From an uncultured Oscillospiraceae bacterium (GTDB taxonomy: Bacteria; Bacillota; Clostridia; Oscillospirales; Acutalibacteraceae): DNA of 64,000 bases. The stretch is taken from the NCBI GenBank assembly GCA_900541565.1, contig UQKB01000007.1, forward strand, positions 16,875 to 80,874, read 5' to 3'. The notes beneath the pieces were generated by a model. It ran no database searches. It worked only from the letters and a program-made list of their open reading frames with translations, and was not told the DNA's origin. The translations under genes and the position numbers were made by a program. Shown piece after piece: positions 7,967 through 64,000 of the stretch (position 1 is its first letter; every line of letters begins with the position of its first letter).

Positions 7967-8607
7967 TCGTTATGGGCAAAAAAATCCCGTCTTACCTGGT
8001 CGGGCTTTTTATCATCCTTCTGGCGTTGGCGCTGTTTGTGCCGCTTGTGCTGATGCCATATCTTTCAAACAGGCCAGTCATGGAGCAGCAGCATGCACAG
8101 GCGCAGGCCACGCTGCGGCTGTATGAAGCCAGACGCAACAGTATAGAAGAATACAAAAACCATGTCAACGACCTTCAGTCGCGTTGGGACGAGCTGGAAG
8201 CGGAAATGTTTGTAACGGCCGACAGCACAGCCAACGATTTAAACCAGATGTTTTCCGACCTTGGCATTACGCCCATGTCCATCAATATATCGGACGAGCA
8301 GGAAGTTCTCCCGGCAGAAACCTCTTCTACCGGCGACCCGCTGTGTTCTATAGATATTGCGTTAAGCTTTACGGCTTCTCCCAACAAGGTGCTGGATGTA
8401 ATTGATTTTTTTGAGCAGGAATCCGACGGCTCCTACTATATCCGTACCCTCAACTTTTCAACCGTTACCCAGACAGACAGCCAAAACGGTGTTCCCGTTG
8501 CAAGGGGCGACTTAAACACCTCCATGAATATTTCGCTTTATTACTTTCAGGCGGATGCTCCCTCCGCACAGGCACAAACACCGTCGTCTGCAAATACAGC
8601 GGCATGA
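7963..8607 (+). CDS. PilO-like pilus alignment protein
   Basis: 214 residues: a short cytoplasmic N-terminus, one membrane helix near residues 11-33, a charged coiled-coil stretch and a ferredoxin-like C-terminal domain ending in a Ser/Gln/Ala-rich tail. Size, topology and position right after the PilM/PilN-like gene match PilO, which dimerises with PilN to align the platform with the pilus. Overlaps both neighbours by 4 bases. Sequence identity to named PilO proteins cannot be judged by eye. Confidence 0.65.
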   Translation: MIVMGKKIPSYLVGLFIILLALALFVPLVLMPYLSNRPVMEQQHAQAQATLRLYEARRNSIEEYKNHVNDLQSRWDELEAEMFVTADSTANDLNQMFSDLGITPMSINISDEQEVLPAETSSTGDPLCSIDIALSFTASPNKVLDVIDFFEQESDGSYYIRTLNFSTVTQTDSQNGVPVARGDLNTSMNISLYYFQADAPSAQAQTPSSANTAA

Positions 8608-9359
8608 TGTACCGTCCATTTTCTGCCGCTTTTGCTGTAAGCCTTGTGCTGGTCGTACTCTCTACAGCCGGGATCGTCTATCTTGCGTTTCTTTTGTGTA
8701 ACCGTGCGCCTGCTGCCTGGTTTTGCGACTATGGAGAAACACCTTCGCCAAAGGCCGCATGCGGCACGCGCTTTTCCTACCGGCGTGTTGGGATCCCCTG
8801 CACGGTTTTGCTTTGTGTTTGTAACGCGCTGTGTTTTTTTCTATACGGGGTATGCCTGTACAGCGCTTTATTGTGTCTGTCCATGATACTTATGCTCCTG
8901 ATTGCGCTGAGCGACAGAAAATATACCATCATTCCCGACCAGTTTACCGCCGCGCTTGCTCTTCTTTGCGCCGCCGGTGCCGTATGCGATCTGCTGTCCG
9001 GCCAGTTTTTTATTACAAGCTGGTGGTCGCCGCTTGCAGGCGGTGCCTGTGGGGCTGCGCTTTTTCTTCTTTTAAACCTTTTCAGCCGCGCGCTTTATAA
9101 AAAGGACGGGATCGGTTTTGGTGATGTAAAGCTTTTTGGCGCACTTGGGATTTTATTGGGCTTTCCGGCCGTCTTTTTAGGCTTTATTTTTTTACTGTTT
9201 ACGGCGTTTTTCCATATTCTTTTTTTACTGGCGGCAAAAAAGATCAAAAGTGGGTTCTACCTTCCCATGGGACCGTACATTTGCGCAGGCTGCGCGCTGC
9301 TGATCCTATTGCGCACGCCCGTTTACCGTCTTGCCGCATGGTATTTACAGCTGCTTTGA
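8604..9359 (+). CDS. pilD: Prepilin peptidase, A24 aspartic type
   Basis: 251 residues with about seven hydrophobic segments. The two catalytic aspartates of A24 peptidases are visible: ALSDRKYTIIPD near residue 103 and GFGDVKLFG near residue 174. It should cleave all four prepilins in this window after their leader glycine. The N-terminal segment that in bifunctional enzymes carries the methyltransferase domain and its paired cysteines is short and degenerate here (isolated Cys only), so N-methylation may be lost or done elsewhere. Coupled to the PilO-like gene by an ATGA overlap. Confidence 0.88.
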   Translation: MMYRPFSAAFAVSLVLVVLSTAGIVYLAFLLCNRAPAAWFCDYGETPSPKAACGTRFSYRRVGIPCTVLLCVCNALCFFLYGVCLYSALLCLSMILMLLIALSDRKYTIIPDQFTAALALLCAAGAVCDLLSGQFFITSWWSPLAGGACGAALFLLLNLFSRALYKKDGIGFGDVKLFGALGILLGFPAVFLGFIFLLFTAFFHILFLLAAKKIKSGFYLPMGPYICAGCALLILLRTPVYRLAAWYLQLL

Positions 9360-9399
9360 CTGTAACCCGATTCCGTTGTAAAGGAGCAAACAAAACCAT

Positions 9400-11091
9400 A
9401 TGAAAGCATCCAATCTTAAGCTTGGTGAAATTCTGATCAAGTCCGGCGCAATCACCCCCGATGTTTTACAGCAGTGCCTGGACAAACAAAAACATGCAGG
9501 AAAACGCATTGGCGAAATTCTCACAGAGGAAAAGTATATTTCTGAACAAACACTTTGCAAGGCGCTGGCCCAGCAGTTTTCCATGCCGTATATAGATCTG
9601 CAAAGCGTAGAGATCGACCCGAAAATAGCAGAAATTGTGCCTGAAAATATTTCTGTTGCAAATCATATTATCCCAATCTCTTTTGATGACAAATCCCTGA
9701 CGGTCGCCATGTCCGACCCTCTTGACTATAAGGCGATCAATACCCTGGGTAATTATACCCGTCATCGGATTAACGCGGTGCTGGCCGAGGCCTCTTCTAT
9801 CCTGGAAAAACAGCGGGAGCTGTATGCGACCAAAAAGGCGTTCAGCGAAGCGCAGGAGTTTGTCAGCGCGCAAATGTCAAAAGGGCAAAGCGAAGAACAA
9901 AGCGCCATAAATACCGTATCGGAAGATCAACCCATTATCCGTTTTGTCAACAATATGATCGAGCAGGCCGTCTATATGAAGGCCAGCGATATCCATATCG
10001 AGCCTATGGAAAAGAAAATGCGCATCCGTTTTCGCATTGACGGCAGGCTGATCCAATACCTGGAAACAGGGCCGGATCTGATTCCTTCCGTCACCAGCCG
10101 TATCAAATTTATCGGCGGCATGAACATTGCCGAAAAGCGTCTGCCGCAGGACGGGCGTCTGCATTATCGTGCGGGCAACACAGAGGTGGACATGCGTATT
10201 TCTGTTATGCCGAGCGTTTTTGGGGAAAAGGTCGTGATCCGTATCACCACGGCGCTTGGTATTACAATGGACAAATATGGGATTGGCTTTTTGCCGGAAA
10301 ACCTTGCCGTTTTCGAATCCCTTCTAAAAAGCAACCGCGGCATTATTTTACTTACAGGCGCGACAGGTTCGGGCAAGTCCACAACCCTGTACACGGCGCT
10401 TAAAGAAATACAGCGCGACGACATCAATATCGTCACAGTAGAAAATCCCGTTGAAATGATTATCCCCGGCATCACCCAGGTAGATATCAACGACAAAGCC
10501 GGCCTTACCTTTGCAAACGTTTTGCGGTCCATTTTAAGGCAGGATCCGGACATCATCATGATCGGTGAAATCCGCGACCGCGAAACAGCCGAAATCGCCT
10601 CCCGCGCCGCCATCACCGGGCACCTGGTTCTGTCCACCCTGCATACCTACAGCGCTGCAAGCTCCGTTATACGCCTTGTGGATATGGGTGTTGCGCCGTT
10701 TATGGTCACTTCGGCAGTATTGGGTGTCGTTGCCCAGCGCCTTGTCCGCAAGCTGTGCTTAAACTGCCGCGAAGCCTATTATGCAAATGAGGACGAGCTT
10801 CGCTTTCTCAGCCTGCCTTCCGGAACAAAGCAAAAAATTTACCGTGAAAAGGGCTGCGATAAATGCAACCGGACAGGCACGAAGGGTCGAACCGCCGTAC
10901 ATGAGATCATGCGCGTTACCGGCCCAATCCGGGCTGCAATCCACGCGGGCGAAAGCACGGCGCGCATCAACGAAATCGCGCTTAAAGAAGGCATGCTTCC
11001 CATGCGCGAAAATTTAAGGCGGCTTGTGCGTAACGGCACAATTTCCATTACAACAATGCTGGACGCCGCCATGGACGACGACATACTTTAA
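9400..11091 (+). CDS. pilB: Pilus extension ATPase PilB
   Basis: 563 residues. The N-terminal MshEN-type domain (LGEILIKSGAITPDVL) may sense a nucleotide second messenger. The motor domain has Walker A GATGSGKST near 320, an Asp-box and Walker B region (DPDIIMIGEIRD), and a His box (GHLVLSTLHT). A zinc site is formed by CLNC near 453 and CDKC near 485. These are the features of GspE/PilB ATPases that drive pilus polymerisation at the cytoplasmic face. AAAGGAGC lies upstream of the ATG. Domain order and length are normal. Confidence 0.95.
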   Translation: MKASNLKLGEILIKSGAITPDVLQQCLDKQKHAGKRIGEILTEEKYISEQTLCKALAQQFSMPYIDLQSVEIDPKIAEIVPENISVANHIIPISFDDKSLTVAMSDPLDYKAINTLGNYTRHRINAVLAEASSILEKQRELYATKKAFSEAQEFVSAQMSKGQSEEQSAINTVSEDQPIIRFVNNMIEQAVYMKASDIHIEPMEKKMRIRFRIDGRLIQYLETGPDLIPSVTSRIKFIGGMNIAEKRLPQDGRLHYRAGNTEVDMRISVMPSVFGEKVVIRITTALGITMDKYGIGFLPENLAVFESLLKSNRGIILLTGATGSGKSTTLYTALKEIQRDDINIVTVENPVEMIIPGITQVDINDKAGLTFANVLRSILRQDPDIIMIGEIRDRETAEIASRAAITGHLVLSTLHTYSAASSVIRLVDMGVAPFMVTSAVLGVVAQRLVRKLCLNCREAYYANEDELRFLSLPSGTKQKIYREKGCDKCNRTGTKGRTAVHEIMRVTGPIRAAIHAGESTARINEIALKEGMLPMRENLRRLVRNGTISITTMLDAAMDDDIL

Positions 11092-11109
11092 AAAAGGGGC
11101 TGCAAAGCT

Positions 11110-12204
11110 ATGGATTTTTATGCCTTTATCCGCGACGCCGTAATCGCTGGTGCATCGGACATCCATTGTGCCGCGGGCAATAAGCCCGCCCTGCGCATAC
11201 ACGGAAAAATTTGCTTTTCAGAAGACCATCCGCTTTTAACCGATGAGGAAGTCCTGGACTGCATTCGTCAGGTGCTGTCTTCTGCACATTACGCCCGTTT
11301 TCAGGAAGCAGGCGATATAGACGCCGCCGCAAATATAAAAGACTTTGGCCGCTTCCGCATCAACGCATTTCATCAACGCAACGGCGCTGCACTGGTTATG
11401 CGTGTCGTTCACGCACAACCGCCCGAAATCAACACACTAAATCTTCCTGCTTCTATCGATAAAATTTTAAACCTGCAAGAAGGCCTGGTGCTTGTAACAG
11501 GCCCTTCCGGCAGCGGAAAAACCACAACGCTTGCAGCCTTGATCCACGAAATGAACAAAAAACGCTGTCTGCATATTGTTACGATTGAAGACCCCGTTGA
11601 ATACATCCACACGCCCATCCGCTGTATAATCAACCAGCGGGAGGTCGGGACAGACAGCCTGAGCTATTCCACTGCGCTGCGCGCAGTCCTGCGTGAAAAT
11701 CCCGATGTTATTCTAATTGGTGAAATTCGGGATCCAGAATCCATGACCATGGCCCTTTCTGCAGCCGAAACGGGGCATCTTGTCTTTTCCACTTTACATA
11801 CAGAAGGCGCTGCAAAAACAATTGACCGTATGGTCGACCTGTTCCCGGTAAGCCGTCAGCAGCAGGTGCTCGGTCAGCTTTCCACCACGCTCAAAGCGGT
11901 TATTTCACAAAGATTGCTCCCCCGGGCGGACATTTCCGGGCAGATCGGCGCTTTTGAAATGATGTTTGTAAACTCTGCGGTCGCAAACCTGATCCGCGAA
12001 AATAAAACTGCGCAAATCGACCAGATCATCCAGCTTAATAAAAACGCAGGTATGCTTACCAGAAACGCAAGCATCCAGCTTCTTCTGGAAAACGGCTATA
12101 TCACACCGGAAACGGCACGGCGCTACAGCCTTCATACAGACAGCCCGTCGGCTGCGGGCATGCCGCCGTATCCAAATATTTCACTTTATCCAGAGCAGAG
12201 GTGA
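11110..12204 (+). CDS. pilT: Pilus retraction ATPase PilT
   Basis: 364 residues. N-terminal PAS-like part with GASDIHCAAG, Walker A GPSGSGKTT near residue 131, Walker B region ENPDVILIGEIRD, His box GHLVFSTLHT. The C-terminal SAVANLIRENK corresponds to the AIRNLIRE motif that marks PilT retraction motors. Its presence means this is a dynamic, retractable type IV pilus (twitching, pulling on a surface or DNA uptake) and not just a static fibre or a secretion pseudopilus. The C-terminal tail is short and Pro/Ser-rich. Confidence 0.93.
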   Translation: MDFYAFIRDAVIAGASDIHCAAGNKPALRIHGKICFSEDHPLLTDEEVLDCIRQVLSSAHYARFQEAGDIDAAANIKDFGRFRINAFHQRNGAALVMRVVHAQPPEINTLNLPASIDKILNLQEGLVLVTGPSGSGKTTTLAALIHEMNKKRCLHIVTIEDPVEYIHTPIRCIINQREVGTDSLSYSTALRAVLRENPDVILIGEIRDPESMTMALSAAETGHLVFSTLHTEGAAKTIDRMVDLFPVSRQQQVLGQLSTTLKAVISQRLLPRADISGQIGAFEMMFVNSAVANLIRENKTAQIDQIIQLNKNAGMLTRNASIQLLLENGYITPETARRYSLHTDSPSAAGMPPYPNISLYPEQR

Positions 12205-12210
12205 CCCCGC

Positions 12211-13467
12211 TTGAAATACACATATATCGCCGTCAACAGCAAAAACAGAAAATATAAGGGCGAAATGACTGCCAACTCCCGCGACGAAGTCAGGAAAAAC
12301 CTGCGTTCGCGCGGCCTTACGGCCCTTTCGGTCACGCAGCTGCAGGACCCGGCCGAAATCAACGCCGGCAAAAGCATTTGGGAACGGGAGCTCAATATAA
12401 AAGATATCCATGATACAAAAATCAGGAAAAAACGCATGCTCGCGATGATGCACCAGATGGGCCTGATGATGAAGGCAGGGATTTCCCTCTCTATGGCTAT
12501 GGAGGTCATGGTCGATACAGAATCGGACAAAAATCTGCGCAAGGTTCTTACGGAAATTACAAAAGAGCTTTACAACGGCGTACCGTTGTCTGCCGCTATG
12601 AGCAGGTTTAAAACCTTTCCCCATATCGTCATCAATATCATACAAGCAGGTGAAGCAAACGGGCGGTTAGATCTTTCCTTTGCCCAGTGCGCTTCCATTT
12701 TGGAAAAAGAAATCGCCCTTTTCGGCAAGATCAAAACCGCCCTGGCATATCCGGCTTTTCTGCTGGGCCTTACAATTATTTTGATGATTGTCTTGTCCGT
12801 ACTGGTCATCCCTTCTTTTTCTACCCTCTTTAGCAGCTTTGGCGCCGAACTGCCGGCTATTACACAGTTTACAGTGGGCGTTTCCAATATGCTGATCAAC
12901 CACTGGTATATCATCCTTTTGATCATTGCCGCGCTTGTTTTCGGGCTGCGGTGCTTATACAAATATAACGAAAGCTTTTGTATGTGGTGGAGTCGTACGC
13001 AGCTAAAGCTCCCGTTAATCGGTAAGGTCATGCGTATTTCCCATATTGCGCGCTTTTGCCGTATCATGGCCACGCTTACAGACGCAGGAATCCGCATTAT
13101 AAAAGCGCTGGAGCTTGCAAGGGATGTCATTGCAAACGCATATATGAAGGACTGTATGAACCAGATTATCGAGGATGTAAAGATCGGCACACCCATCAAC
13201 GTAGCCATGTCGCGGTATCCCGTGTTTGACGCTTTGCTCGTTTCCATGATCCGTGTCGGTGAAGAAAGCGGCATGCTTTCCGATTCCCTGCGTAAAATGA
13301 CCGATATGTACGAGCAGCAGGCGGACGAATCCACCAAGCGTCTGACCGGCGCTATAACGCCTGTTTTGACTGTACTCATAGCCATCGTGGTGGCAACTGT
13401 TGTGATTTCCATTGTGGTTCCCATGTTTGGCATGTACGATGTCATTGCCACCAGCGTAAATTCTTAA
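12211..13467 (+). CDS. pilC: Pilus platform protein PilC
   Basis: 418 residues with the duplicated T2SSF architecture: two helical cytoplasmic domains (near residues 70-190 and 275-395) alternating with three membrane segments. The repeated signature IQAGEANGRLDLSFAQCA / IRVGEESGMLSDSLRKM is clear. TTG start with GAGGTGA at 7 bases. Last gene of the assembly operon; it couples PilB/PilT rotation to pilin insertion. Confidence 0.93.
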   Translation: MKYTYIAVNSKNRKYKGEMTANSRDEVRKNLRSRGLTALSVTQLQDPAEINAGKSIWERELNIKDIHDTKIRKKRMLAMMHQMGLMMKAGISLSMAMEVMVDTESDKNLRKVLTEITKELYNGVPLSAAMSRFKTFPHIVINIIQAGEANGRLDLSFAQCASILEKEIALFGKIKTALAYPAFLLGLTIILMIVLSVLVIPSFSTLFSSFGAELPAITQFTVGVSNMLINHWYIILLIIAALVFGLRCLYKYNESFCMWWSRTQLKLPLIGKVMRISHIARFCRIMATLTDAGIRIIKALELARDVIANAYMKDCMNQIIEDVKIGTPINVAMSRYPVFDALLVSMIRVGEESGMLSDSLRKMTDMYEQQADESTKRLTGAITPVLTVLIAIVVATVVISIVVPMFGMYDVIATSVNS

Positions 13468-18467: not shown

Positions 18468-18511
18468 GCGGCTTTTTTGCAGCTTTTTGGCTTGATACGT
18501 TTCATAAAGAT

Positions 18512-18543
18512 AAAAAGAGGGAACCTGGGGTTCCCTCTTTTTT
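18512..18543. terminator. Bidirectional terminator
   Basis: Perfect 14-bp stem with a 3-base loop, flanked by A5 on the left and T6 on the right. It closes the esterase unit and marks the border to the accessory island. Confidence 0.92.
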
Positions 18544-18565
18544 CTTTCTCCAAACTTTCTGCGGG

Positions 18566-18767
18566 GTGCTTTATGCAGGTTTTTATCTTACCCGCCGGGT
18601 TTGTACGTTTATATACATTTCTTCCAAAAAGACTTTGGTTCATTTCTTATGGAAGAAACGAACCAAAGACCACTAAGGGGGAAAACTTGCGATGTTTTCC
18701 CCCTTAGAACCCCCTTTTGTACGCCTCAAGGGGAGTACCCCCTTAAGAATCCCCCTGACGGTTCTTA
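18566..18767 (+). repeat. Dispersed structured repeat, copy A
   Basis: About 200 bases shared with copies at 20533-20714 and 63066-63255. It contains three successive hairpins: 18634-18667 (15-base arms, one mismatch, loop ATGG), 18673-18707 (14-bp perfect stem, loop TTGCGAT) and 18725-18747 (CTCAAGGGG with CCCCTTAAG). It ends in CCCCCTGACGGTTCTTA. No credible open frame; short frames through it are by-products. Likely an untranslated element or structured RNA. Confidence 0.8.
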
Positions 18768-18839
18768 TACAATCGTTTTTGCACACTTACAATGTATGTG
18801 TTTAAAGTTGTAATTTGGGGTTGGCTTGTTGCAGAGTTT

Positions 18840-19139
18840 TTAGTCCTCCAATGTTTCATGGCGTTCCCGGTAATCCACTAGCTCGTCAATGTCTGCAAAT
18901 GCTTCACGGGTCAGAGCACCACCCAGACGAAAGCCTGTAATAAAGGCGTATAGTTCATCGTACTGCCTGGCCCGGTCTAGCGCTGCCTCCATCGCTTCCA
19001 GCTGCCGCTTTTCTTCTTCGCAGTAGCGCGCAATTGCCTTTTGGTGCCCGGTTTTCTTTCCAGCCTTTGTTTGTCCGCGCGAAATTCCACGTAGAAAATG
19101 TCTTTTAATACGCCTTACATTATGGGCCTCCTTCATCAT
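18840..19139 (-). CDS. Small DUF6809-like hypothetical protein
   Basis: About 99 residues from the ATG at 19139 (a start at 19190 would add 17 residues; neither has a good ribosome site). The N-terminal half is very basic (RRIKRHFLRG, KAGKKTGHQK); the C-terminal half is an acidic helix pair with YAFITGFRLGGAL, resembling the F-x-x-GF-x-LG signature I associate with DUF6809 phage/accessory proteins. Function unknown. It is divergent from the XRE gene at 19298 and shares its operator region. Confidence 0.5.
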   Translation of the reverse strand: MMKEAHNVRRIKRHFLRGISRGQTKAGKKTGHQKAIARYCEEEKRQLEAMEAALDRARQYDELYAFITGFRLGGALTREAFADIDELVDYRERHETLED

Positions 19140-19217
19140 TTTTTTGTTAATACGTTTGCTATTATGAAAAATCAAAAAACATAATTTCATGGCACAGGTA
19201 AATTTTTATAATCATTA

Positions 19218-19264
19218 TATAACCTATAGGTTATATTGTCAATATAATTTTCAGGTTATATTGT
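19218..19264. promoter_or_regulatory. Operator of divergent XRE/hypothetical pair
   Basis: A perfect 18-bp palindrome TATAACCTATAGGTTATA (19218-19235) is followed by a second copy of its right half: AGGTTATATTGT occurs at 19228-19239 and again at 19253-19264, 25 bases apart. It lies between two divergent genes, one coding an XRE repressor-like protein. Confidence 0.65.
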
Positions 19265-19297
19265 AAAATAAATAAAATTGGGAAAGGTGGAATTATC

Positions 19298-19513
19298 ATG
19301 TATTTTTTACCTAGAATTCAACAGTATAGAAACAAAAAAGGATGGACACAAAATTATGTGGCAGAAAAAATGAATATTAAACAATCACAGTATAGCAGAT
19401 ATGAATCAGGTGAAGATGAAATGAGAATAGGAACATTTGTAAATTTGTGTAAAGCATTAGAAGTATCCGCCGATTATCTTTTTGCTTTTTCAGACGACCC
19501 TCAAATTAAATAA
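19298..19513 (+). CDS. Small XRE-family regulator 1
   Basis: 71 residues that are almost entirely a helix-turn-helix domain: WTQNYVAEKMNIKQSQYSRYESGEDEMRI. The C-terminal SADYLFAFSDDP is typical of phage/ICE-type Cro/CI-like proteins. AAAGGTGG precedes the ATG. Codon use is more AT-rich than the flanking core genes. It likely binds the palindrome just upstream and represses itself and the divergent gene. Confidence 0.82.
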   Translation: MYFLPRIQQYRNKKGWTQNYVAEKMNIKQSQYSRYESGEDEMRIGTFVNLCKALEVSADYLFAFSDDPQIK

Positions 19514-19647
19514 AATCCTATTTTTATTTATTGTTTTTTCTGGTGGAAAAGATTTTTCTTATGTATTTATATAAAACGGCTGAGAAAAGAAAGCTGTATA
19601 AAGTACCATAAGAAGCAAGGCTGCAAGTCTAAAAAACTGTTATATAA

Positions 19648-19943
19648 GAATCCCCCCGACGGTTCTTAAGTGAAAGTTTCTGCGCATTTGCGGCTTTGTC
19701 CTTTTTCATTTTTTCGGCAGTTTGTACATGCTTAAAAAGAAGCATTGCTTTTTATGCTCCATTTTGATTTTCTTTGTCTGTCTGCTCCGGGAACAGCACG
19801 CTTTCTAATATAGACACAAGCGCAAAGTTAAAGCTTGTGTTGTTTTTTGCTGCTACTTCCTCTATTTTCTCCGCAAGTGTTTCTGACAAATAGGTTGTTT
19901 TATAGATATGCGGTTTTCTTTTTCGAGGGGGGATCGTATACAT
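19648..19943. repeat. Duplicated 296-bp block with RHH gene, copy 1
   Basis: By eye only about three differences from 63234-63529 over equal length. The left end is the GAATCCCCCCGACGGTTCTTA tail of the structured repeat; the right end stops exactly at the start codon of the small RHH gene, beyond which the two copies diverge. Confidence 0.88.
19752..19943 (-). CDS. Small ribbon-helix-helix-like protein, copy 1
   Basis: 63 residues. The basic start PPRKRKPHIYK is followed by TTYLSETLAEKIEEVAAKNN and a helix FNFALVSILESVL: a beta-strand then two amphipathic helices, as in CopG/Arc-type DNA-binding dimers. AAAGGAGGAG precedes the ATG at 19943. An identical protein is encoded at 63338-63529. 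It could be an antitoxin-like repressor, but no toxin gene lies next to it. Function inferred from fold pattern only. Confidence 0.7.
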   Translation of the reverse strand: MYTIPPRKRKPHIYKTTYLSETLAEKIEEVAAKNNTSFNFALVSILESVLFPEQTDKENQNGA

Positions 19944-20118
19944 CAAAGCTCCTCCTTTCTGCTATTTATAAAAAATACCGACAAAATATTAATCAGATAT
20001 ATCTCAACTTAAATTTATTTAACTATTTTTCTCACCTCCCATATTATTATGCCACACTTGTGTTCCTTTTGCAACACTTTTGCAGCAAAAACTGGTATAA
20101 AAGAATAGAGGTGATACT

Positions 20119-20346
20119 ATGTACTATAACGAACGTTTAATTGCTCTCAGAGAAGCACACGGATTGACACAAGAACAGGTAGCAACTGCTATTGGTGTAA
20201 AAAGAGAACAATATAGAAGATATGAAATTGGCAGAAACGAAATAAAAGCGCACCACATAGTTGCTTTTGCAAAGTTGTATAAGGTATCTACGGACTATCT
20301 TTTATGTTTATCAAATTCTCCATATGAATCTTGGGTAAAAAAGTAA
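20119..20346 (+). CDS. Small XRE-family regulator 2
   Basis: 75 residues: LTQEQVATAIGVKREQYRRYEIGRNEIK is a canonical HTH_3 domain, followed by STDYLLCLSNSP. AGAGGTGAT precedes the ATG. It sits alone between the RHH gene and an RHH gene remnant. AT-rich codons. Similar in layout to the two other XRE genes of this island but not a close duplicate of them. Confidence 0.82.
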   Translation: MYYNERLIALREAHGLTQEQVATAIGVKREQYRRYEIGRNEIKAHHIVAFAKLYKVSTDYLLCLSNSPYESWVKK

Positions 20347-20361
20347 TAAGTGATGATAGCA

Positions 20362-20428
20362 AGCGCTTCTGACAAATAGGTTGTTCTATAGATATGCGGC
20401 TTTCTTTTCCGAGGGGAGCCTTATACAT
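20362..20428 (-). pseudogene. Truncated, frameshifted RHH gene remnant
   Basis: Reads like the first 20-odd codons of the RHH gene (start ATG at 20428, GGAGGAAGC upstream), but one base is missing in the Pro/Arg stretch and the gene stops matching near 20362, where it abuts the XRE gene 2 end. Its upstream sequence, including a CCGCCCG/CGGGCGG hairpin at 20449-20466, matches the region upstream of the intact copy at 63338-63529. Confidence 0.75.
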
Positions 20429-20532
20429 TTTGCTTCCTCCTTATTTTTCCGCCCGCTCCGGGCGGTTTTATTTTGTGCTTTTTTCTGTCATCCACTGCTT
20501 TCCCTCCTTCATAAGGCTTTTTATCCTTTATG

Positions 20533-20714
20533 TGGGTTTGTATTTTTTCCGTCGGCTTTGTGCGTTTCTATACATTTCTTCCAAAAAGACTTTGTTCATT
20601 TCTTATGGAAGAAACGAACCAAAGACCACTAAGGGGGAAAACTTGCGATGTTTTCCCCCTTAGAACCCCCTTTTGTACGCCTCAAGGGGAACGCCCCCCT
20701 TGAGAATCCCCCTA
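20533..20714 (+). repeat. Dispersed structured repeat, copy B
   Basis: Same three hairpins as copy A: first near 20594-20623 (one base shorter on the left arm), second at 20629-20663 with the TTGCGAT loop, third with a perfect CTCAAGGGG/CCCCTTGAG stem. The 3' tail diverges after GAATCCCCCT. The 5' flank differs from copies A and C. Confidence 0.8.
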
Positions 20715-20826
20715 GTCATTCGTATTCCTTATAGTTAGTAAAAAACATTTTGACTACGGCTCTGGCGGAACGGTATTAATGATTGAATGGGAAAAGAAAA
20801 TTTAACATAATTTGGTTTTCATTTCT

Positions 20827-20889
20827 CCTACTAACAGTAGTATACACTACTATTAGTAGGAAATCAAACTTTGTTTCTACTTTTAGTAG
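20827..20889. promoter_or_regulatory. Long palindromic operator before XRE gene 3
   Basis: A 34-base near-perfect palindrome (20827-20860) built from CCTACTAA, AGTAGT, ACTACT and TTAGTAGG, with only two symmetric mismatched positions; a further CTACTTTTAGTAG lies at 20877-20889, just before the ribosome site. Probably self-regulation by the downstream XRE protein. Confidence 0.7.
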
Positions 20890-20917
20890 TAACATATAAA
20901 AAAGGAGATGATAAAGT

Positions 20918-21139
20918 TTGAAACCTTATAACAAAAGATTAAGCGAATTAAGAACAGATCATGATTTAACACAAAAAGCCGTTAGCGAAATATGTAATGT
21001 ATCAGATGCGTCTGTAGGACATTGGGAAAAAGGAGTCCGAGAAATTAGCATAGATTGTTTAATTAAACTAGCCAAATTTTACAATGTATCAGTTGATTAT
21101 ATTTTAGGCTTAACTGATAACAAACAAAAGTTTTGGTAA
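20918..21139 (+). CDS. Small XRE-family regulator 3
   Basis: 73 residues with HTH motif LTQKAVSEICNVSDASVGHWEKG and C-terminal NVSVDYILGLTDN. The TTG start is fixed by AAAGGAGATG upstream. AT-rich codons compared with core genes. Candidate binding sites are the palindromes directly upstream. No other gene follows before the pnp terminator; the stretch to 21311 holds only a short inverted relic of the repeat tail at 21186-21206. Confidence 0.83.
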   Translation: MKPYNKRLSELRTDHDLTQKAVSEICNVSDASVGHWEKGVREISIDCLIKLAKFYNVSVDYILGLTDNKQKFW

Positions 21140-21311
21140 ATTGTAGCGGAGGCATTTTTGCTTTATTTTAAGCACGCAGAAGCTGTTGTATAAGAACTGT
21201 CAGGGGAAATGCCGCAAAGCGGTTGCATAAGAAATAAACCAATTTTATTAGAACAAATATATAAAAACAGAAAAAGCCGGAAAACAACAGAAACTTGCAT
21301 AAAGCACTATA

Positions 21312-21366
21312 AAAACCCCCGAAAGCCGCAGGCAACACATATCACCTTGCGGCTTTCGGGGGTTTT
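21312..21366. terminator. Terminator of pnp
   Basis: Nineteen-bp stem (arms AAACCCCCGAAAGCCGCA and its complement) around a 17-base loop, A-rich on one side and T-rich on the other. It ends pnp on the minus strand and could also stop rightward transcripts from the island. Confidence 0.9.
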
Positions 21367-23586: not shown

Positions 23587-23725
23587 TTCTTTTCCTCCTG
23601 AAAATAAAATATCTATTTTACAGGGAGGCACCGCTTAGCAATAAAACCGATATTCCAAGCATGCAAAATATCCGTTTCACTGCTAACCAAATGCTTCCGC
23701 TGTAAATTCCAACAAATGACCAACA

Positions 23726-23752
23726 GGGCAGACGGCACAATGCCGCCTGCCC
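23726..23752 (-). terminator. rpsO-pnp intergenic hairpin
   Basis: Twelve-base arms (GGGCAGACGGCA / TGCCGCCTGCCC, one mismatch) around CAA, without a strong T run. In other bacteria the rpsO-pnp gap holds an attenuating terminator and RNA-processing hairpin; this fits that place. Confidence 0.6.
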
Positions 23753-23764
23753 CGAAAATTGCCA

Positions 23765-24028
23765 TTATTTACGTATGCCAAGCTTAGCGATAATTGAGCG
23801 GTATCTCTCAATATCGGTCTTAATCAGATAATTCAGCAGGCTTCTTCTCTGCCCTACCATCTTCAGCAGGCCTCTGCGGGAATGGTGATCCTTTTTGTGT
23901 ACCTTTAAATGCTCGGTCAGATCGTTAATTCTCTTTGTCAAAAGCGCAATCTGTACCTCGGGGGAACCCGTATCGCCTTCATGCAGGGCATACTCCTGCA
24001 TAATTGCATTCTTTTCTTCTTTTAACAT
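23765..24028 (-). CDS. rpsO: 30S ribosomal protein S15
   Basis: 87 residues from the ATG at 24028 (AAGGTGG 8 bases upstream), matching the usual S15 size; the longer in-frame start would add 11 residues. Hallmarks: [32 protein letters not shown] and [11 protein letters not shown]. It binds 16S rRNA early in small-subunit assembly. Confidence 0.97.
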
Positions 24029-63065: not shown

Positions 63066-63255
63066 GTGCTTTATACAAGCTTTTATCTTACCCGCCGGGT
63101 TTGTACGTTTATATACATTTCTTCTAAAAAGACCTTGTTCATTTCTTATGGAAGAAACGAACCAAAGACCACAAAAGGGGGGTTGCGATCCCCCCTTTTG
63201 AAACCCCCAACCGCCTCAAGGGGGGCCCCTTGAGAATCCCCCCGACGGTTCTTAA
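63066..63255 (+). repeat. Dispersed structured repeat, copy C
   Basis: Third copy, 43-44 kb from A and B. Hairpin 1 near 63134-63166 is conserved. Hairpin 2 has a different stem, AAAAGGGGGG (63173-63182) with CCCCCCTTTT (63190-63199), but the same TTGCGAT loop. Hairpin 3 is CTCAAGGGG/CCCCTTGAG. The 5' part matches copy A from GTGCTTTAT onward. Confidence 0.82.
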
Positions 63256-63529
63256 GTAAAAATTTCTGCGCATTTGCGGCTTTGTCCTTTTTCATTTTTT
63301 CGGCAGTTTGTACATACTTAAAAAGAAGCATTGCTTTTTATGCTCCATTTTGATTTTCTTTGTCTGTCTGCTCCGGGAACAGCACGCTTTCTAATATAGA
63401 CACAAGCGCAAAGTTAAAGCTTGTGTTGTTTTTTGCTGCTACTTCCTCTATTTTCTCCGCAAGTGTTTCTGACAAATAGGTTGTTTTATAGATATGCGGT
63501 TTTCTTTTTCGAGGGGGGATCGTATACAT
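63234..63529. repeat. Duplicated 296-bp block with RHH gene, copy 2
   Basis: Partner of 19648-19943. Overlaps the tail of structured repeat copy C and ends at the RHH start codon; the sequence upstream of that codon instead matches the remnant at 20362-20466. Confidence 0.88.
63338..63529 (-). CDS. Small ribbon-helix-helix-like protein, copy 2
   Basis: 63 residues, identical in protein sequence to the gene at 19752-19943. The ribosome site differs: GGAGGAAGCAAA before ATG 63529. A frameshifted XRE gene lies directly upstream on the same strand, separated by a CCGCCCG-CTC-CGGGCGG hairpin (63550-63566), so the two may once have formed a two-gene regulator unit. Confidence 0.72.
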   Translation of the reverse strand: MYTIPPRKRKPHIYKTTYLSETLAEKIEEVAAKNNTSFNFALVSILESVLFPEQTDKENQNGA

Positions 63530-63568: not shown

Positions 63569-63884
63569 TTATTTTGTGCTTTTTTCTGTCATTCGCTGCG
63601 CAATTGCAAGCAGCAGCGCTTTGTCCTGTTCATTTAGCTTTTCTATGTTCGCCTTCAGGCTTGCAACCATAAGCGGGTCCTGGCAGCCTTCGTCAAAAAA
63701 ATCTTTCAGTGAAATCTGGAAATAGTCGTTGCACATATATATGAATTCCGACATAGAAGGCAGCCCCCCTGCCAGAGCTGATATTCTGTATATATCTTTT
63801 GTTATGCCCCAGCTTTAAGCTCATGGCATATTCTGAATCACCCTTTTTCATCCTTAGCTGCGTGATCCGCTCACGGATGTACAT
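63569..63884 (-). pseudogene. XRE-family gene, frameshifted in G6 tract
   Basis: First frame: MYIRERITQLRMKKGDSEYAMSL, then SKxYIQ-like NKRYIQNISSGR, an atypical XRE domain. After six G (on the minus strand, near 63765-63770) the frame is lost, but LPSMSEFIYMCNDYFQISLKDFFDEG and a helical tail to KSTK continue in another frame to 63569. Removing one G restores a protein of about 105 residues. Either recently broken, phase-variable or a read error close to the contig end. Confidence 0.75.
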
Positions 63885-63952
63885 TGTGCCTCATCCACTG
63901 CTTTCCCTCCTTAATACGTCTTTTGATCCTTTATGTGGGTTTGTATTTTTTC

Positions 63953-64000
63953 CTGTCTCTTATACACATCTGACGCTGCCGACGACTAGTCGAGTGTAGA
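63953..64000 (+). other. Illumina Nextera adapter read-through (not genomic)
   Basis: CTGTCTCTTATACACATCT is the Tn5 mosaic end; GACGCTGCCGACGA completes the Nextera read-2-side adapter as I know it; CTAGTCGA would be the reverse complement of an i5 index, and GTGTAGA begins the flow-cell sequence. Genomic similarity to 20533-20552 stops just before it. Confidence 0.96.

Follow-up and report, generated by a model that had tools for sequence, protein, structure and literature searches.

Here we describe a hairpin-rich element, about 215-230 nt long in full copies, which is dispersed through a 64-kb window (the whole stretch of DNA analysed) as three full copies (A, B and C), one diverged copy (D) and two partial ones (E and F). 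We tentatively read it as a non-autonomous, structure-conserved interspersed repeat of the BOX class that forms the 3' UTR and the boundary of accessory-gene modules. The original prediction had placed three copies with three successive hairpins in this DNA. All three were found where predicted, with the hairpins common to A, B and C, but alignment of A, B, C, D and F revealed shared ends which make the element larger than had been proposed. One end carries TAAGAACYGTC nearby (A, C, D and F) and the opposite end is ATAAAG(C/G)A (A, B, C and D); the outer end GTGCTTTATGC is conserved in A, C and D. Identity is 91.5% between A and B (189 columns) and 83.2% between A and C (202 columns). The core GAACCAAAGACCAC matched the window three times at ≤2 mismatches, as compared to 0.26 matches expected, and none of 100 shuffles gave three. 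Dispersed intergenic copies of a short repeat, as are typical of the BOX/RUP class, are thus found within the 64-kb window. The strand of the element, copy D, fragment F and the truncated fifth copy (E) had escaped the original prediction. Positions 63954-64000 at the contig end resemble what we take to be a Nextera transposon adapter (CTGTCTCTTATACACATCT...), so that the last bases would be contamination and the true end would lie inside a repeat copy. The coordinates of all features are given in Table 1.

Table 1. Positions of the repeat copies and of neighbouring features in the 64-kb window.
Feature	Position	Strand	Remarks
Copy A	18566..18796	-	Hairpin order on minus strand: 3 (18724-18747), 2 (18673-18707), 1 (18633-18668); 5' end near 18796 approximate
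Copy B	20526..20713	-	Hairpin 2 at 20629-20663; first bases of 5' part missing (without AAGAACCGTC)
Copy C	63066..63280	-	Hairpin 2 at 63172-63200, stem different and shorter; 5' end approximate
Copy D	21163..21307	+	Diverged, opposite orientation; both ends kept; hairpins 3 and 2 and 5' arm of hairpin 1 lost
Copy E (fifth)	63891..63953	-	3' end of a further copy and adjoining stretch only; truncated by contig end
Fragment F	19645..19690	-	5' part of element only, 3' of full RHH-like ORF
Islet	18566..21307		Bounded by inverted element ends (GTGCTTTATGC...GCATAAAGCAC)
Terminator-like hairpin	18512..18542	both	3' of A and of convergent hydrolase gene
DUF6809-like small gene	18840..19190	-	Directly upstream of A
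Promoter match TTGACA-17-TATAAT, exact	19214..19242	-	5' of DUF6809-like gene; sole exact one in window
HTH_3 (XRE-type) gene	19298..19513	+	
RHH-like ORF, 64 aa	19752..19946	-	Followed by fragment F
HTH_3 (XRE-type) gene	20119..20346	+	
Fragment, start of RHH-like ORF	20359..20428	-	Downstream of B
HTH_3 (XRE-type) gene	20921..21139	+	Directly upstream of D
Large inverted repeat	21312..21366		3' of D, before pnp gene end; terminator-like on + strand
RHH-like ORF, 63 aa	63338..63529	-	Directly upstream of C

The fold of A, B and C was assigned to the minus strand, because A-C mismatches on the plus strand turn into G-U pairs there. Such a pair is present in stem 1 of all three copies, and hairpin 3 of A (CTCAAGGGG with CCCCTTAAG) and the outer stem of C behave in the same way; stem 1 of B and C also contains a bulge of one base. 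The minus strand folded 5-13 kcal/mol better than the plus strand, the minimum energies (minus/plus) being -83.6/-72.6 kcal/mol for A, -66.3/-61.2 for B and -75.9/-62.6 for C, and it formed more G-U pairs (8 vs 1, 7 vs 0 and 11 vs 4, respectively). Hairpin 2 pairs perfectly both as CTAAGGGGGAAAAC-TTGCGAT-GTTTTCCCCCTTAG in A and B and as CAAAAGGGGGG-TTGCGAT-CCCCCCTTTTG in C; the predicted combination of a changed stem with a kept loop was thereby confirmed, the stem being one pair longer than first noted. Copy D showed no difference between strands (-23.4/-23.1 kcal/mol) and folded no better than shuffles (z-score 0.43). With the exception of D, the copies share a secondary structure, as do BOX/RUP-class repeats.

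Each copy with an intact 5' part (A, C, D and F; 4/4) lies about 25-60 nt past the stop codon of a small co-directional gene, namely the DUF6809-like gene (A), an RHH-like ORF (C and F) or an HTH_3 gene (D), although C and F come from one duplication, so that the co-direction rests on about three cases. The 297-bp unit of RHH-like ORF and F is 99.0% identical to the unit at 63233-63529. Neither B nor E stands behind a gene; each precedes AAGGAGG and the beginning of the next module. Terminator-like hairpins are located 3' of A and D; immediately 3' of C, none of that kind was noted. When the 3-kb region of the DUF6809-like gene was shuffled, an exact consensus promoter, as found ahead of this gene, arose in 5 of 2000 cases. 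The original prediction that the copies adjoin genes for small DNA-binding proteins held in part. Copy B does neighbour an HTH_3 gene, on the other strand; the DUF6809-like gene next to A scored 23.4 bits, below the cut-off of 27; and the 63-aa RHH-like ORF beside C gave no match in a Pfam scan, its ribbon-helix-helix label being a reading of the sequence. Five relatives of the RHH-like protein were present among the proteins searched, two of them internally shortened, and a change of frame follows residue 33 in relatives P0004 and P0005. Modules are duplicated and truncated, and the small-gene modules seem to multiply and decay.

Several further features were seen among these genes. Nested inverted repeats (ATATAACCTATAGGTTATAT) at 19206-19261, between the divergent DUF6809-like and HTH_3 genes, overlap the exact promoter and probably serve as operator for the HTH_3 protein. 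A further operator-like inverted repeat (TCCTACTAACAGTAGT/ACTACTATTAGTAGGA) stands at 20826-20861, before the HTH_3 gene at 20921. On the minus strand at 63569-63884, the overlapping ORFs 63693-63884 and 63569-63754, neither with a convincing Pfam match, appear to represent one HTH-type gene read in two frames.

In this genome, presumably that of a Clostridia-type host, the element mostly lies 3' of a small accessory gene, past the stop codon, with its three-hairpin fold on one strand, and the transcript of that gene would therefore carry it as a hairpin-rich 3' UTR. Such a 3' UTR would have a protective or attenuating effect on the message and would insulate the module, while the copies would provide homologous boundaries along which small-gene modules duplicate, fuse and decay. 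Here we infer transcription of the element, any effect on the mRNA and its mode of spread. The element seems to delimit small regulator-gene modules, and may hence be a handle on how such modules are shuffled. The 3'-UTR reading is weakened by B and E, which precede a module, and by D, which is devoid of the hairpins.

Relatives of the element were found in phage-like contigs. Searching IMG/VR with two hairpin 3 patterns led first to locus L004 and then to L005, L006 and L007, and a third pattern led to L008. In L004, L005 and L007, TTTCTT..AAGAAA followed within the next 100 nt on the predicted strand, as it did in 6, 4 and 20 of 5000 shuffles, respectively; L006 and L008 were dropped as simple hairpins, with TTTCTT..AAGAAA in none of their four flanks. 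A covariance model of 127 positions was built from A, B and C alone, the kind of search that the original prediction had proposed. It matched L004, L005 and L007 over its full length and in the same hairpin order, with 44.5, 36.7 and 33.6 bits, respectively; the highest score elsewhere, outside the window copies, was 16.8 bits. The E-values of the model are rough, and part of the three scores is circular, since the loci were chosen by hairpin 3 patterns; this selection did not bear on hairpin 1, on the loop or on the order of the hairpins. The match of 16.8 bits (23691-23810, minus strand, between rpsO and pnp) was discarded as a generic hairpin; matches to A and B in the wrong orientation (21.0, 19.9 and 17.2 bits) were also discarded. 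The loop of hairpin 2, preceded by GGGG-N-TTC throughout, is AUCGCAA in the window copies, AUCCGAA in L004 and AUCGAAA in both L005 and L007. A second hairpin 1, with an identical outer stem and a different inner end, is present at 3170-3201 of L004.

The relatives did not agree on strand or orientation. Energies favoured the same strand in L004 (-105.8/-96.8 kcal/mol), the other strand in L005 (-75.4/-80.0 kcal/mol) and were about even in L007 (-85.2/-84.8 kcal/mol). In L004 the element lies directly 5' of the portal gene, in the same direction; in L005 and L007 it lies directly 3' of the major head gene, antisense, and the agreement of these two positions may reflect one inherited insertion. 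Orientation to genes is therefore not fixed, which counts against a universal 3'-UTR role, and the antisense position in L005 and L007, together with the better fold of L005 on the other strand, weakens the reading that we favour. No relatives were detected in plasmids searched by DNA and by protein, in phages searched by DNA, or in viral contigs in further searches by pattern or by RHH-like protein. Matches of 57 and 42 bases in two plasmid records and of 35-50 bases in 11 proteobacterial records were taken as chance. One 19-mer pattern of the window-type core, blind to diverged relatives, gave three matches in genome contigs, all in proteobacterial MAGs, and these were judged to be chance since about two were expected by our own arithmetic.

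A somewhat unlikely alternative is that the element is mobile at the level of DNA, its hairpins being single-stranded signals for a transposase acting in trans and its fold being kept for movement and not for any function as RNA. Copies in both orientations, the conservation of GTGCTTTATGC in A, C and D, and the sense as well as antisense positions in phage-like contigs all fit such an element, as does the islet, whose inverted element ends (17 nt) are 94% complementary. These inverted ends are a feature of the islet and not of the single element. GC content was 0.26-0.42 in 8 of 9 segments of 300 bases across 18500-21199, and 0.50 in the remaining one. Against movement as DNA, neither a transposase nor an integrase was named among 57 distinct window ORFs that were scanned (Pfam or NCBIfam, E limits 0.1 to 1e-10), nor was a Y1 (HUH) transposase, and no target-site duplication was seen by eye in the flanks of A, C and D. 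The G-U pairs on one strand fit RNA, yet G-T pairs are tolerated in DNA too.

Known families and other origins of the repeat were also considered. Within the window only tRNA reached the Rfam gathering score; near the repeats and in positions 1-500 of L004, on which Rfam was run, matches were sub-threshold only, and a known RNA family was therefore rejected. Origin from a protein was rejected as well, as reading frames across the element differ between copies and peptides of the element found no scored homologue (none at E ≤ 10 for 70 candidates; none at E ≤ 1 for one candidate). Integron attC sites have the core pair RYYYAAC...GTTRRRY, which was present in 0/6 elements on both strands. REP/BIME elements with TnpA-REP are palindromic, intergenic and dispersed, as is this element; but REPs, as described in PMC8266576, measure 20-50 nt with GTAG ahead, and GTAG was found in the 8 nt before the hairpin in 0/9 window hairpins on both strands, so REP was rejected. 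Open-access papers, in mostly broad searches, yielded no description of the element.

The closest parallel is with BOX, RUP and SPRITE of Streptococcus pneumoniae, a likeness of organisation and fold. According to PMC3049150, these are short, modular intergenic repeats with strong predicted RNA structure, over-represented between convergent genes and thought to affect co-transcribed genes, and the 3' hairpins of BOX are proposed to protect messages. The same paper gives BOX and RUP terminal inverted repeats, target duplications and a proposed parent transposon, whereas no such duplications were seen in the flanks of this element and no parent was found among the window ORFs. Likened by description only are the stem-loop families of bacterial genomes, including ERIC, of which PMC2267715 reports 92 intergenic repeated families with predicted shared secondary structure in 40 genomes, in a survey that predates the sequence of this organism. 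The same holds for candidate structured RNAs of the human microbiome, a set which, according to PMC8040213, includes palindromic candidates near phage genes. As its relatives differ in sequence and keep the fold, the element appears to belong, as an undescribed member, to the known class of small structured intergenic repeats.

The original prediction took the paired changes within the window as a sign of selection. Among A, B and C, 3/33 pairs are changed on both sides, four hairpin 2 pairs are absent in C, and the observed covariation was reached in 13/500 shuffles. A and B are identical in hairpin 2; the window therefore offers one independent difference, too few to carry that claim. The conserved structure that it proposed is instead supported by L004, L005 and L007, where stems differ but still pair. 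Its two suggestions, a new non-coding RNA family and a mobile non-autonomous element, are compatible with each other, and either may apply. The fair comparison here is a hand register of stem 1. From inside outward, its five outer pairs are G-U, C-G, U-A, U-A, G-C in the window; G-U, C-G, C-G, A-U, A-U in L004; G-U, C-G, C-G, C-G, C-G in L005; and C-G, U-A, A-U, C-G, C-G in L007. Thus 20/20 were paired over four lineages; when the 3' arms were permuted in all 24 ways, the next best arrangement gave 16. Alignment A8, in which six sequences were fitted to the structure of the model, had 97.8% of its 183 cells paired (78.4% in shuffles) and 22/33 pairs changed on both sides, neither value being reached in 500 shuffles. 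A8 places L004 within a local palindrome of the 5' arm of stem 1 and out of register in helix 3 (10 of the 22 changed pairs), which inflates the helix-3 counts; the safer figure is thus 12/22 pairs, in helices 1 and 2. When MAFFT, which misplaces stem 1 of L005 and L007, was combined with RNAalifold, the signal was absent, with a slightly unfavourable covariation term of +1.42. Six sequences are few for a test of covariation.

Paired changes can also arise by mutation. PMC8794818 sets out how template switching can give rise to perfect stems and to multibase compensatory changes, and the process could explain some of the paired changes seen here. Accordingly, the copies might be old repeat debris devoid of present function, with hairpins made or mended by template switching during replication and with paired changes reflecting mutation and not selection. 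We consider this unlikely. The block change that separates hairpin 2 of A and B from that of C would suit it, as would the decay of D, F and the RHH-like fragments. However, one position of stem 1 is an imperfect G-U in the window, L004 and L005 alike (C-G in L007), which argues against template switching because copying of one arm would have removed the G-U, and the loop and the order of the hairpins are likewise conserved.

A role as a cis-regulatory attenuator or switch, in which hairpin 1 would be a terminator and its 5' arm would pair alternatively with a downstream copy of its 3' arm, is improbable. On the minus strand, hairpin 1 of A resembles a terminator, with 16 pairs and the tail TCTTTTTGGA, and CGTTTCTTCC can pair in A and B with GGAAGAAATG further downstream; but a T-rich tail behind hairpin 1 is absent in L004, L005 and L007, the competing pairing in C has one more mismatch, and the downstream gene is not constant. 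It is more doubtful still that fixed loop, fixed hairpin order and freely changing stems define a structured RNA family of bacteria and phages which, as RNA or folded DNA, bounds and moves small regulator-gene modules in a previously undescribed hairpin-bounded cassette system.

Under the preferred reading, as an interspersed repeat of the BOX class, the phage-like relatives bear on a wider point. If their relation to the window copies holds, the fold outlives the sequence, and it can then be tested what preserves repeats of this kind (a role as RNA, a role as DNA signals or mutation bias alone), an open question for the class of small structured repeats.

Two other gene clusters were observed in the window. 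On the plus strand, 8604-13467 carries type IV pilus or secretion genes, encoding a prepilin peptidase, an inner-membrane protein and two ATPases, one of which has a c-di-GMP-binding MshE-type start. A long polysaccharide cluster occupies the minus strand at 38311-62038, with glycosyltransferases, a flippase-like protein, EpsG, LicD and a 614-aa ORF combining a nucleotidyltransferase-like start with an aminotransferase-like end.
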